From NCBI GenBank assembly GCA_947168395.1, contig CAMVLT010000003.1, forward strand, positions 124,001 through 188,000: a stretch of 64,000 nucleotides of DNA, written 5' to 3'. The notes beneath the pieces are model-generated. The model was not told the DNA's origin. It searched no databases and saw only the letters and a program-made list of their open reading frames with translations. The DNA is from an uncultured Prevotellaceae bacterium. GTDB taxonomy: Bacteria > Bacteroidota > Bacteroidia > Bacteroidales > Bacteroidaceae. Below, piece after piece: positions 2,306 to 62,579 of this stretch (positions are counted from its first letter, which is position 1; every line of letters begins with the position of its first letter). A program made the position numbers and the translations under genes.

Positions 2306-2380
2306 TCGAAATCCATTTTCACTTCCGCATACTTATTCAGTTTTTGCATAAACATGCACTCCCCCACCCCCACCCGACTT

Positions 2381-2440
2381 TCCCTACGGTAAACCCGGAG
2401 TTTACCCTACCCAAACCCAGGGTTTACCCTACCCAAACTC
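2381..2440. repeat. GTTTACC 17-mer repeat locus A
   Basis: CTACGGTAAACCCGGAGTTTACCCTACCCAAACCCAGGGTTTACCCTACCCAAACTC; flanked by TGCATAAACATGCA at 2345-2358 and 2467-2480. Confidence 0.85.
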
Positions 2441-2669
2441 CCCCACCGCCCCGTCCAATCTGGAAGTGCATAAACATGCAAATGAAAATAATGACTGAAA
2501 GTTTGGAACTTTCGGCTTTTTTGATTAACTTTGCCAACGTAAAAGAAACATTCTATCATGCAGGGGCGGTTCGTGTGATCATTTCTAATCGGACTGATGG
2601 GAGCAATAGGGAGAACGTCAGAATAAACCTGAAATGAAAGATCAAAGGATGATGTCGAGCACTAAAACG

Positions 2670-25660: not shown

Positions 25661-25725
25661 GGGTTTAAGTAGGGTAAACCGGGGGTTTAGTTACGGTAAA
25701 CTCCACGTTTACCCTACCTAAACTC
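25661..25725. repeat. GTTTACC 17-mer repeat locus B
   Basis: GTTTAAGTAGGGTAAAC CGGGG GTTTAGTTACGGTAAAC TCCAC GTTTACCCTACCTAAAC. Confidence 0.9.
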
Positions 25726-36751: not shown

Positions 36752-38356
36752 ATGGAAAAGAAACTATTGTTGGGCGACGAAGCCATCGCATTGGGAGCAC
36801 TCCATGCCGGACTATCCGGCGTGTATGCTTATCCTGGCACTCCGTCCACAGAAATCACAGAGTTTATTCAGGGTAACCAGCTGGCCAAGGAACGCGGTGT
36901 TCACAGCCGCTGGAGTACTAACGAGAAGACCGCCATGGAAGCTGCCCTCGGCATGTCGTTCATGGGCAAGCGTGCCTTGGTCTGTATGAAGCACGTCGGA
37001 CTAAACGTTTGTGCTGACCCGTTCGTCAACAGCGGAATGACGGGCGTCAACGGCGGTGTTGTGGTGCTGGTTGCCGACGATCCGTCGATGCACTCCTCGC
37101 AGGACGAGCAGGACAGCCGCTTCTACGGCAAGTTTGCGCTTATCCCTACATTCGAACCTTCGAACCAACAGGAAGCCTACGACATGATGGCCGTGGCGTT
37201 CGACTACTCCGAGCGCATTTGCCTGCCGGTGCTGATGCGTGTCACCACCCGCATGGCACACAGTCGTGCCGTCGTCCAATGTGCAGACGAGCCACGTCAG
37301 CAGAACGAGCTGAACTACAACGCTGTTGCCGCTAACTGGGTGTTGCTGCCCGCCAATGCAAAGAAGCGCAACGATGTAGTGACTGCACAGCAAGCACAAT
37401 TAGAGCAGGACGCTGCCGCTTCACCTTATAATATATATAAGGAGGGCACCGACAAGTCGGTTGGCATCCTGGCCAGCGGCATCGGCTATAACTACGTCAA
37501 CGAGTGTTTCCCCGAAGGTTGCCCCTACCCCATCTTGAAGATTTCGCAGTATCCGCTGCCCAAGCAGCTGGTTCGCCGACTGATGGACGAATGTGAGCAA
37601 GTGCTCATCGTCGAGGAGGGCCAACCCTTTATCGAGGATATGGTCCGAGGCGTCTTCGACCTGAAGACCGTCCACGGCAAGCTCGACGGTACATTGCCCC
37701 GCACGGGTGAGTTGAACCCCGACATTGTGAAGAAGGCCCTCGGCATGGAGTGCGGACAATGCTTCGACCCATGCGCCGATGTGGCTCCGCGCCCCCCCGC
37801 ATTGTGCCAGGGCTGCGGCCACCGCGATGTCTATGCTGCTCTGAACGAGGTTCTGAAGGAGTATGACAACCCTCGCGTCTTCGGCGACATCGGTTGCTAC
37901 ACATTAGGTTTCCTGCCCCCGTTCCGCGCCATCCACTCGTGTGTCGACATGGGTGCCTCCATCACGATGGCCAAGGGTGCTGCCGATGCAGGTCAGTGGC
38001 CTGCCGTAGCCATCATCGGCGACTCCACCTTTACCCACAGCGGCATGACGGGACTGTTGGATGCCATCAACGAGAACGCCAACATCACCGTCATTATCTC
38101 CGACAACCTCACTACGGGTATGACTGGCGGACAGGACTCCGCCGGCACCAATAAGTTTGAGGCCATCTGCCGCGGCTTAGGACTCTCCGACGAGCACTTG
38201 AAGGTGGTTGTTCCCCTGCCCAAGAACATGCCGGAAATTACGCAGACCATCCGCGACGAGATAAACTACAAAGGAACCAGTGTCATTATTCCACGCCGTG
38301 AGTGCATGCAGACGCTACAGCGGCACCTGAAGCAAAAGAAAGCCAGTAAATCGTAA
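36752..38356 (+). CDS. iorA: Indolepyruvate ferredoxin oxidoreductase alpha subunit
   Basis: LLLGDEAIALGALHAGLSGVYAYPGTPSTEI; ALCQGCGHRDVYAAL; GDSTFTHSGMTGLLDAINENANITVIISDN. Confidence 0.93.
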   Translation: MEKKLLLGDEAIALGALHAGLSGVYAYPGTPSTEITEFIQGNQLAKERGVHSRWSTNEKTAMEAALGMSFMGKRALVCMKHVGLNVCADPFVNSGMTGVNGGVVVLVADDPSMHSSQDEQDSRFYGKFALIPTFEPSNQQEAYDMMAVAFDYSERICLPVLMRVTTRMAHSRAVVQCADEPRQQNELNYNAVAANWVLLPANAKKRNDVVTAQQAQLEQDAAASPYNIYKEGTDKSVGILASGIGYNYVNECFPEGCPYPILKISQYPLPKQLVRRLMDECEQVLIVEEGQPFIEDMVRGVFDLKTVHGKLDGTLPRTGELNPDIVKKALGMECGQCFDPCADVAPRPPALCQGCGHRDVYAALNEVLKEYDNPRVFGDIGCYTLGFLPPFRAIHSCVDMGASITMAKGAADAGQWPAVAIIGDSTFTHSGMTGLLDAINENANITVIISDNLTTGMTGGQDSAGTNKFEAICRGLGLSDEHLKVVVPLPKNMPEITQTIRDEINYKGTSVIIPRRECMQTLQRHLKQKKASKS

Positions 38357-45076: not shown

Positions 45077-45697
45077 CTATTGTTGTTCAACCAAGGTATA
45101 GTCTCCCGTTGTCTTCAGCCGCTGCAACTCCTCGTATATACGGATACAAGCCCAAGCATCGGTAGCCGCATAGAGTTTCTGCTTCTCGTTCAGGATGTCG
45201 CACTCCCAGTTGGTCAGCCGCTGTGCCTTGCTGATGTACTGTCCGAACAGATTTGCATAGAGTTTCTGGAGGCTCAGGTCCTCAATGCCAATCTCGCAAA
45301 CGTGGTCCTGAATGTCGATGAAACTGCCATTATTGAACTTTCCCAGCTTATGCAATCCTAATAAGTCGTCGTGCCACGAAAGGCCGATTTTGGGCACCGT
45401 CGTGTCCTCCAACAGGCGGACGATGGCTGGCGTCATGCCAATGACATTGAGCCTGAACAGGAAACACTGGTCGTAGGTGGCCACCTGCAGCAGGGCGACA
45501 TGGTAGAATGTGCCACGAGTAAAGGCTGGTCGCGTCTCCGTGTCAAGCCCGAGGATAGGCTGCGTCAGCAGGTAATTGACTGCCCGCTCGGCCTGCGTGC
45601 GGGAAATAATGACGTGGATTTTACCCTCGAACACAGCTCTCGGCAGCGATGAAACCGCGCTTTTATCGAATTTGTTATATATCAGCTTATTCATCAT
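45077..45697 (-). CDS. 3'-5' exonuclease (RNase D-like DEDD)
   Basis: ILGLDTETRPAF; DIQDHVCEIGIEDLSLQKLYANLFG; YAATDAWACIRIYEEL. Confidence 0.92.
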   Translation of the reverse strand: MMNKLIYNKFDKSAVSSLPRAVFEGKIHVIISRTQAERAVNYLLTQPILGLDTETRPAFTRGTFYHVALLQVATYDQCFLFRLNVIGMTPAIVRLLEDTTVPKIGLSWHDDLLGLHKLGKFNNGSFIDIQDHVCEIGIEDLSLQKLYANLFGQYISKAQRLTNWECDILNEKQKLYAATDAWACIRIYEELQRLKTTGDYTLVEQQ

Positions 45698-45883
45698 AAC
45701 GTGTTTACGAGGTGCAAAATTACAAAAAATAATTCAAACAGCCATACATTCCCTCGTTTTTTACTACTTTTATAGTGATGGGGCATCATGGGCACCGCGA
45801 CACACGACCGAGTGATTTTGTCAACTATTTTCGCTTCGCCTCAAAACAGCCGAAACACAGCGAAAACGCCCCAAAAAGGGGTC

Positions 45884-45977
45884 TCTGAGTTTACCGTAAG
45901 TAAACCCGGAGTTTACCCTACCGAAACCCCGGGTTTACCCTACTGAAACTCCAGGTTTAATCCGGGCAAACTCAGAG
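45884..45977. repeat. GTTTACC 17-mer repeat locus C, with terminal inverted repeat CTCTGAGTTT
   Basis: GTTTACCGTAAGTAAAC CCGGA GTTTACCCTACCGAAAC CCCGG GTTTACCCTACTGAAAC TCCAG GTTTAATCCGGGCAAAC TCAGAG. Confidence 0.92.
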
Positions 45978-46103
45978 AGCATCGAGGGGTAATTTTCTCT
46001 GTAAACAAATTTCATAAAGAATATCCAAATTGACATATCTGAAGTAAGAGTAAATAATATGGTTAATCTTCTGAAATTGTTTTCGTGTTACAGACTTTTT
46101 TAG

Positions 46104-46111
46104 TACTTTTG
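46104..46111 (+). promoter_or_regulatory. Bacteroidetes -7 element (TACTTTTG) upstream of ftsK
   Basis: TTTTTTAGTACTTTTGCACTGG, 28 nt upstream of the ATG. Confidence 0.55.
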
Positions 46112-46138
46112 CACTGGAATTCAAGAGAAGACAAAGAA

Positions 46139-48592
46139 ATGGCAAAGAAAAAGACCCAGAAAACCAAGGCGGAAAAGCCCGCAGTCAACCTGTCGGAGGC
46201 TTTAGGCATAGACAAGATACTGAACAACGAGCGACTGAACTTCTTCGTAGGACTGCTGCTATTCATAGTGGCTATCTACATGACGCTGTCGTTCGTATCC
46301 TTCTTCACGACAGGTGCTGCCGACCAGAGTTACATTGAGGAACTGCGTGCAGGCGAGCTGCGCAATCTGAATCACGAGTTTTCCAATTCGTGCGGCTCGC
46401 TTGGTGCCTACACGGCGTGGTATTTCATCAAGCGCTGCTTCGGCATTTCGGCATTCCTCATTCCGGTGTTCCTGTTCATCACGTCACTCAACCTGATGAA
46501 GGCCTACCGCATCAAGCTGCTGAAGTGGTTTCTCTCGATGATGGTCATCATGATTTGGAGCTCCATCACGCTGGCCAAGTTCCTGTCTCCGCTGTTTGCC
46601 GAGTCGCACTTCAACCCGGGCGGCGACCACGGCCGCTTCATCTGCCAGCAAATAGAGGGACTCATCGGTACACCCGGCCTGACGGCCATCCTGGCTTTGG
46701 TGGCCATCGCGTTCCTTACTTATATTAGTGCCGAGACCATCTACATCATCCGCAAGCTGCTGAACCCGAAGAAATTCTTCGACACGGTGAAGTTCAAGAT
46801 TACGAATAACGACCCCGACGAACCCATAGAATCCTACGAGAGCCAGATACAGACGCTGGAAGACCCGGAAGTGTTTGACGACCCCTCGGAGCAAGTGGTG
46901 ACTTTCGAAATGACGAATGTGACGAATGAGCCTCATGAGTCAGATGAGCCACACGAGGCCAGCAAACCCCAAGAGCCCCATGACTCGGAACCAGGCTTTG
47001 AGGTGGAAACCGTGAAAAACGAGGAAACGGCCGACCAGAAAACGCTGGTGCAGGTGGGAGAGCAGGAGCTGGAGCCTTACGACCCCAAGCGCGACTTGGA
47101 GAACTACCACTACCCCACCCTGGACCTGCTGAAGAAGTACGACAACGACGGCAAGCCCTATATCGACATGGAGGAGCAGACGAAAAACAAGAACCGCATC
47201 GTGGAGGTGCTGCGCACGTTCGGTGTGGAGATTTCAACCATCAAGGCTACTGTCGGCCCCACCATCACCCTGTACGAGATAACGCTGGCTCCGGGTGTGC
47301 GCATCTCGAAGGTGCGCTCGCTGGAGGACGACATCGCCCTGAGCCTCTCGGCCTTGGGCATCCGTATCATCGCGCCTATTCCCGGCAAGGGTACCATCGG
47401 TATTGAGGTGCCTAACGCCAAGCCCTCAATTGTGTCGATGGAGTCGATACTGAACTCGAAGAAGTTCCAGGAGTCGACTATGGAGCTGCCCTGCGCCATC
47501 GGTAAGACCATTACCAACGAGGTGTTCATGTTCGACCTGGCCAAGGCGCCCCACCTGTTGGTAGCTGGTGCTACGGGTCAAGGTAAGTCGGTAGGTCTGA
47601 ACGCCATTATCACCTCTTTATTATATAAGAAGCATCCTGCCGAGATGAAAATCGTGCTGGTTGACCCCAAGAAGGTGGAGTTCTCCATCTACAACCCGCT
47701 TGTCAACCACTTCCTGGCCAAGGTGCCCGACGAGGACTCCGACCCCATCATCACCGACGTGACAAAGGTGGTGCGCACGCTGAACTCGCTCTGCAAGGAG
47801 ATGGACACGCGCTACGACCTGCTGAAGCTGGCTGGCGCACGCAACATCAAGGAATACAACAAGAAATTCATTGAGCGCCGCCTCAATCCCAACAACGGCC
47901 ACCGCTACATGCCTTACATCGTGGTCATCATCGACGAGTTCGGCGACCTCATCATGACAGCCGGCAAGGAGATTGAGCTGCCCATTGCCCGCATTGCCCA
48001 GCTGGCCCGTGCCGTGGGTATTCACATGGTCATTGCCACGCAACGTCCGACGACCACCATCATCACGGGTAACATCAAGGCCAACTTCCCAGGACGTATT
48101 GCCTTCAAGGTGTCGGCCGGCATCGACTCGAAGACCATTCTCGACCGCACGGGAGCCCAGCAGCTCATCGGTCGCGGCGACATGCTGTTCCTCGCCGGCT
48201 CGGAACCGGTACGTGTGCAATGCGCCTTTGTCGACACGCCCGAGGTGGAGCACATCAACGACTTCATAGCCCAGCAGCAGAGCTACAACATGCCGTTCGA
48301 ACTGCCGGAGCCTGACGTTGCCGACGGTGACTTGGGCGGCGAGTCGCACGACGTGGACATGACGCACCTCGACCCGATGTTCGAGGATGCTGCCCGACTG
48401 ATTGTCATCAACCAAAGTGGCTCCACATCGCTCATCCAGCGCAAATTCTCGATTGGCTACAACCGTGCCGGCCGCCTGATGGACCAGATGGAGAAGGCTG
48501 GCGTGGTGGGCCCCGCCGTGGGCTCGAAGCCGCGTGAGGTATTGATACAGGACGAAGTAACGCTGAATAACCTGATTAGCAACTTAAAATAA
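46139..48592 (+). CDS. ftsK: DNA translocase FtsK/SpoIIIE
   Basis: 4 TM N-terminus; APHLLVAGATGQGKSVGLNAIITSLLYKKHPAEMKIVLVDPKKVEFS; C-terminal gamma winged helix. Confidence 0.97.
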   Translation: MAKKKTQKTKAEKPAVNLSEALGIDKILNNERLNFFVGLLLFIVAIYMTLSFVSFFTTGAADQSYIEELRAGELRNLNHEFSNSCGSLGAYTAWYFIKRCFGISAFLIPVFLFITSLNLMKAYRIKLLKWFLSMMVIMIWSSITLAKFLSPLFAESHFNPGGDHGRFICQQIEGLIGTPGLTAILALVAIAFLTYISAETIYIIRKLLNPKKFFDTVKFKITNNDPDEPIESYESQIQTLEDPEVFDDPSEQVVTFEMTNVTNEPHESDEPHEASKPQEPHDSEPGFEVETVKNEETADQKTLVQVGEQELEPYDPKRDLENYHYPTLDLLKKYDNDGKPYIDMEEQTKNKNRIVEVLRTFGVEISTIKATVGPTITLYEITLAPGVRISKVRSLEDDIALSLSALGIRIIAPIPGKGTIGIEVPNAKPSIVSMESILNSKKFQESTMELPCAIGKTITNEVFMFDLAKAPHLLVAGATGQGKSVGLNAIITSLLYKKHPAEMKIVLVDPKKVEFSIYNPLVNHFLAKVPDEDSDPIITDVTKVVRTLNSLCKEMDTRYDLLKLAGARNIKEYNKKFIERRLNPNNGHRYMPYIVVIIDEFGDLIMTAGKEIELPIARIAQLARAVGIHMVIATQRPTTTIITGNIKANFPGRIAFKVSAGIDSKTILDRTGAQQLIGRGDMLFLAGSEPVRVQCAFVDTPEVEHINDFIAQQQSYNMPFELPEPDVADGDLGGESHDVDMTHLDPMFEDAARLIVINQSGSTSLIQRKFSIGYNRAGRLMDQMEKAGVVGPAVGSKPREVLIQDEVTLNNLISNLK

Positions 48593-62147: not shown

Positions 62148-62161
62148 GTTATAAATACCCA

Positions 62162-62579
62162 CGCTGTCATCGCTGTCATCGTCATCGCTGTCATCGCTGT
62201 CATCGGTGAGAATGTATATTTATTCCAAAACCGCATAAACATCCACAACCTTCCCGACCGCAGTTTAGGTAGGGTAAAGTGGCAGTTTCATTACGGTAAA
62301 GGCAGCGTTTGCTTACGGTAAACCAAGCGTGCGAACGGCACTATCTTATACTGCATAAATATGCAAAACCACACACCTATCGATGACACCGATGACGATG
62401 ACACCGATGACAGTGAGGGTATTTATATTTTTGTGGCAGCAGGTTTAGTTCGATACAAGGCTCAATTTACAGAGCATTATTTATATATTATTATAATAAT
62501 ATATAATGACACTACAACCTACCCAACGATGACAAAAAATAGGCCGGTGTCATCGGTGTCATCGGTGTCATCGTCATCG
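62162..62579. repeat. TGTCATCG-word repeat island (three arrays, middle one inverted) with 26-bp AT palindrome
   Basis: Arrays at 62162-62206, 62381-62413 (inverted) and 62545-62579; TTATATATTATTATAATAATATATAA at 62481-62506. Confidence 0.9.
62260..62324. repeat. GTTTACC 17-mer repeat locus D
   Basis: GTTTAGGTAGGGTAAA, GTTTCATTACGGTAAA, GTTTGCTTACGGTAAAC; flanked by GCATAAACAT 62233-62242 and TGCATAAATATGCA 62352-62365. Confidence 0.85.

Follow-up and report, generated by a model that had tools for sequence, protein, structure and literature searches.

Dispersed intergenic arrays of a 17-nt quasi-palindrome on a fixed 22-bp grid in Prevotella, possibly BIME-like protein-binding sites

The 64,000-nucleotide stretch of DNA analysed here (the window) belongs to the genome of an uncultured Prevotellaceae bacterium (G000, a rumen-type Prevotella; 4.07 Mb in 117 contigs). 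A first-pass annotation had noted a 17-nt quasi-palindrome at four loci, with three to four units each in either orientation and about 5 nt apart. All four loci were confirmed. Each contains three 17-nt units on either strand, the gap between units is exactly 5 nt, and the period is therefore exactly 22 bp (17+5; Table 1); a fourth unit is present only at 45884-45977 (array 3), where it is degenerate. The window holds 13 matches to the unit at two or fewer mismatches where 0.13 would be expected, a count reached in 0 of 100 shuffles, and one of the 13, an isolated two-mismatch match at 36862, is probably due to chance. The reported alternation of unit centres between CCCTACC and CCGTAAN is mostly accounted for by a single unit read in either orientation, together with sequence variants.

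Table 1. Positions of array units and associated repeats in the window
Feature	Position	Strand	Details
Array 1	2378..2438		units 2378-2394 (-), 2400-2416 (+), 2422-2438 (+); period 22
Flanking palindrome TGCATAAACATGCA, left of array 1	2345..2358		recurs next to other subfamily F5 arrays
Flanking palindrome TGCATAAACATGCA, right of array 1	2467..2480
Array 2	25663..25723		units 25663-25679 (-), 25685-25701 (-), 25707-25723 (+); period 22
Array 3	45889..45949	+	units 45889-45905, 45911-45927, 45933-45949; period 22
Degenerate fourth unit of array 3, GTTTAATCCGGGCAAAC	45955..45971	+	same register as the other three units
Inverted repeat around array 3	45882-45914 / 45946-45978		33 nt; 82% complementary
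F4 element, left end motif TTTTGTCAACTATTTTCGC	45816..45834	+	from alignment of six G000 copies and L132
F4 element, right end motif CTCTGTAAACAAATTTCATAA	45997..46017	+	same orientation as left end motif
Array 4	62263..62323	-	units 62263-62279, 62285-62301, 62307-62323; period 22
Inverted repeat enclosing array 4 (subfamily F2), left arm	62150..62196		47 nt, 91%
Inverted repeat enclosing array 4, right arm	62381..62427		47 nt

The arrays are accompanied by other repeats that differ between subfamilies. The terminal inverted repeat described previously at array 3 (CTCTGAGTTT/AAACTCAGAG) is present, but it is only the tip of a 33-nt pair, and array 3 is itself housed in an element of ~200 bp (F4). 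When TGTNAANNATTTYGNA was sought as an end motif shared by both sides of G000 arrays generally, with a pattern poorly aligned to the left F4 end, no enrichment was found (P 0.25), indicating that the ends of F4 are specific to that subfamily. The 47-nt inverted repeat of array 4 is a GTCATCG-type sequence with two more copies in G000. Several arrays (subfamily F1) adjoin a ~250-bp palindromic repeat made of 11-bp AGGTAGGTGTT-type repeats, which occurs at 2150-2310 in the window and at C7 88852, C7 118656, C2 213137 and C5 47727 in G000.

A scan of the whole G000 genome returned 337 unit matches, versus 14 for the reversed pattern used as a control, so the unit neither lacks further copies nor occurs at the frequency of shuffled sequence. 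Examined contig by contig, 1.23 Mb of this genome contained 53 clusters, mostly triplets with units starting at 0, 22 and 44. Unit directions within triplets were outward in ~20 cases and all one way in ~13, with only 2 triplets directed inward. A count of three-member chains of near-palindromes (16-18 nt) gave 24 at a 5-nt gap, whereas shuffled sequence gave 4 and the other gaps tested (3 to 8 nt) gave 3 to 6, which singles out the 5-nt spacer.

Of 41 G000 arrays, none falls within a gene predicted by a simple custom gene finder. In tandem gaps, the array is closer to the stop than to the start in 27 of 34 cases (P 0.0004), and convergent gaps are over-represented in G000 (P 0.0006) and, to a weaker degree, in a congener, G218 (P 0.07). 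The copies are also spaced apart. The 80 copies on the 2.66-Mb contig C1 of G218 are separated by at least 5.98 kb, with no gap under 5 kb where 11 would be expected, and in a 520-kb stretch of the same genome the coefficient of variation (CV) of the spacing is 0.51 versus 0.94 (P 5e-5). Regularity is modest in G000 (CV 0.70 versus 0.91, P 0.036), where three gaps are shorter than 4 kb.

The anatomy of the arrays is clearest in G218, where 32 arrays were read in 520 kb and the array is a directional element of fixed length (~195 bp) with four units. Twenty-seven of these elements align without gaps over 165 positions, such that the motif positions are nearly invariant and the others are free to vary. 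Two similar motifs in one orientation, GAAATATCTTTACA and GAATTATTTTTACA, bound the element and, at one or fewer mismatches, are nearly confined to it. G/C content is phased at 11.0 bp over ~105 bp, with a power 6.4 times that of random intergenic DNA, and all 27 elements exceed the 95th percentile of random intergenic sequence. The phasing is weaker in G000, where only 28% of triplets rise above the 95th percentile of a background drawn from G218 intergenic DNA. An IHF-like sequence, WATCAANNNNTTR, is exact in only 6 of the 27 elements and is a hint at most.

Of 398 Prevotella genomes, 138 contain the generic two-unit pattern GTTT-N9-AAAC-N5-GTTT-N9-AAAC, the number of doublets per genome reaching 298; a phylum-wide sample of 396 genomes yielded it in 5. 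Where the genome was named, two-unit matches were confined to Prevotella and to Bacteroidales or Prevotellaceae metagenome assemblies, mostly from rumen. Every match in a collection scan that permitted gaps of 4-6 nt had a gap of 5; centres and spacers are lineage-specific, and the 22-bp geometry is constant across species. The reversed pattern (CAAA-N9-TTTG) is also abundant in some congeners, and its arrays in G108 appear to keep to the same 6-5-6-5 grid, shifted to a different register; within the genus, therefore, the reversed pattern is not a clean control. A literature search, to which much subscription literature was inaccessible, yielded no description of this array family.

The sister species G113 and G351, which are 92.6% identical, carry arrays at the same two places, and changes between them affected 7 of 92 motif positions versus 16 of 79 other positions (P 0.023, a marginal value obtained by pooling the two arrays). 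Between more distant species array positions turn over, as around argB/topA, where G082 and G218 differ. Around topA in G113, G157 and G308 (L240, L243 and L244), the intergenic DNA has been largely rewritten and hairpin-rich 22-bp units persist. One G082 array (L204; C6 13960-14214) marks a break in gene order between G082 and G218: the neighbours on its two sides are far apart in G218.

Palindromic sites with one-turn spacing could be operators of a transcription factor regulon, and two of the four window arrays do lie upstream of genes (SDR and ftsK). However, the genome-wide preference for stops over starts and for convergent gaps, the lack of relationship among the genes beside the window arrays, and the preservation of unit centres without symmetry make such a role highly improbable. 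The first-pass annotation also offered an RNA structure, and hairpins that terminate transcription or stabilise the 3' side of an mRNA, a role suggested for some REPs, would suit arrays situated near gene ends. Three of the four window arrays folded better than shuffled sequences (z -3.2 to -5.5), perfect hairpins occur in G157 and G082, and in a set from G082, G113, G157 and G351 hairpins exceeded those of column-shuffled alignments (z 3.4), although this is a mixed-species set in which cross-species shuffling may inflate the contrast. The fourth window array, by contrast, folded no better than shuffles (z 0.56 and -0.01), and the best hairpin per element showed no excess over column shuffles in G218 (P 0.25) or G000 (P 0.5), indicating that foldability there reflects column composition alone. 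Variable positions of the 27 G218 elements showed no pairing covariation, either long-range (z -1.1) or within units (z -2.9). Pairing in RNA or in a cruciform is thus not a conserved feature in G218 or G000, and we rejected both long-range and local hairpin readings. Because the direction of G218 elements relative to genes, compared end-to-end, is random (7 versus 7), a directional RNA leader was rejected as well. In addition, there is no terminator-like T run at 45690-46140 and no Rfam match in the window. Together, these data disfavour an RNA-level element, which we consider very unlikely.

Another possibility, also raised at the outset, is a miniature mobile element: a non-autonomous, MITE-like unit that spreads by transposition and whose array serves as the site bound by a transposase or recombinase. 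Conserved ends within unrelated flanks, seen in G000 subfamilies F1, F2 and F4, in G108 copies, and in L132 from another species (which also has F4), indicate that array copies moved or were copied. Some of these are discrete elements of ~200 bp (F4, G108), some G000 copies have long, near-identical flanks, copy number per congener ranges from 0 to ~300 doublets, and the exclusion spacing could be target immunity. A MITE-like history is possible to likely for some subfamilies. Against transposition as the general explanation, we saw no target duplication among G218 or G108 copies, no clean empty site when G308, G157 and G113 were compared, no autonomous copy with G218 element ends in 520 kb (where the end motif is virtually absent outside the elements), no transposase, and no array match in collections of plasmids, phages and viral contigs. 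L135 was considered as an empty site relative to G000 and was rejected since the intergenic regions could not be aligned. The orientation of the end motifs is inconsistent, being direct in G218 and F4 and inverted in F2 and in G108 (TGTAAAGATAATTC / GAAAAATATTTACA), and G218 copies vary freely off-motif yet retain motif and length, unlike decaying copies. Taken across the family, this explanation is possible but rather unlikely.

The arrays resemble several described systems in part. As in BIME/REP sequences of Enterobacteria, Pseudomonas and Stenotrophomonas, the palindromic units number in the hundreds, lie scattered between genes in short mosaics of either orientation near gene ends, and are intermixed with other palindromes. 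The arrays differ in that the Prevotella unit is 17 nt on a 22-bp grid without a foot plus hairpin, and in that its palindromes are not maintained by compensatory change in G218 or G000, excess foldability being confined to the four-genome set described above. The arrays lack two defining features of RAYT-linked REPs, a cognate flanked RAYT and palindromes preserved by complementary mutation. The only PF01797 match in G000 is a RAYT-like Y1 transposase gene (C1:89306-89761) flanked by REP-like palindromes of its own, GGCCTGAAAGGCC / CCCAGGGCATCGCCCTGGG, and not by the array unit, and G017, which has 118 doublets, gave no Y1 transposase match; a RAYT/REP origin was therefore rejected. REPINs, which are RAYT-dependent, have two REPs per unit, whereas the Prevotella arrays have three to four units on the 22-bp grid and show no connection to a RAYT. 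Common to both is the scattering of short inverted palindromes between genes, which in REPINs come in pairs (PMC3116915). The BrickBuilt MITE of Porphyromonas gingivalis, with 23-nt direct repeats in 1 to 23 copies at 19 loci, indels, and a leader and tail, likewise places a short tandem repeat between genes of a Bacteroidales genome, flanked by repeated sequence (PMC4596501). Identity with BrickBuilt was rejected, however, because the Prevotella period is exactly 22 bp and its palindromic units, three to four per array at fixed spacing, occur in either orientation.

Gyrase sites provide a further comparison. The E. coli gyrase motif spans 130 bp, is symmetric, and has a 10.75-bp G/C period, and gyrase itself is enriched downstream of transcription units (PMC6379681). 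Judged by published length, symmetry and period, strong gyrase sites (E. coli, Mu SGS) and the G218 elements appear alike in being symmetric, ~105-130 bp long and G/C-phased near one helical turn, with 11.0 bp in G218 elements versus 10.75 bp in the gyrase motif. The Prevotella arrays differ in following a strict sequence grammar in many copies and in being only weakly phased in G000. BIMEs themselves include IHF sites (BIME-1) and gyrase-binding sequences (BIME-2) (PMC2817692).

Of the three options proposed initially, a protein-binding array is the best supported: the geometry is kept despite sequence change, and in G218 there is no covariation, no preference for gene orientation, and an exclusion spacing. 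The array is most likely a bound chromosomal landmark rather than an RNA. More specifically, our tentative preference, held with somewhat less than even confidence, is that the arrays are BIME-like dispersed nucleoprotein sites that phase DNA for wrapping. Because G218 phasing resembles the gyrase motif and BIME-2 binds gyrase, gyrase or another DNA-wrapping protein is the leading candidate ligand. The inverted half-sites (GTTT... / ...AAAC) recur about once per helical turn, so that one side of the helix would present them all to a protein or complex, which could bend or wrap the DNA at the array. We infer protein binding, wrapping and gyrase as the ligand from sequence, and likewise that a protein recognises the symmetry one half-site at a time. 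The arrays would then work as E. coli BIMEs do, as bound sites across the chromosome and not as promoters or RNA elements, and would plausibly recruit topoisomerase or condensing activity. Counting against the landmark interpretation are the weak phasing and modest spacing in G000, the two window arrays between divergent genes (25663 and 45889), and the hairpin set with z 3.4; the strict pattern is also missing from 65% of sampled congeners, which would be odd for a core chromosomal function. A broader version, in which Prevotella has a landmark system of wrapped, fixed-geometry sites kilobases apart, whose reader protein keeps the GTTT/AAAC contacts and an 11-bp half-site grid and shifts its adjacent specificity by species, is speculative and distinctly unlikely as formulated. 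If the arrays are wrapped nucleoprotein sites, they would provide a visible map of topological landmarks for Prevotella, which are abundant rumen and gut bacteria, and would show BIME-like function in a system that does without REP hairpins and RAYTs; mobile arrays would instead represent an element of new internal grammar carried by a putative mover.

Other dispersed near-palindromes in G000 (AATTCTCTCGAGAATT, TAAAACAAGTTGTTTTA and GTTCCCCCTATGGGAAC) lie 5 nt away from array units, at C1 30972, 148060 and 180009, C2 143560 and 103761, C5 18808, C3 34970 and C4 16711. Judging from these 5-nt neighbours, it is as if several classes of unit obey one common spacing rule.
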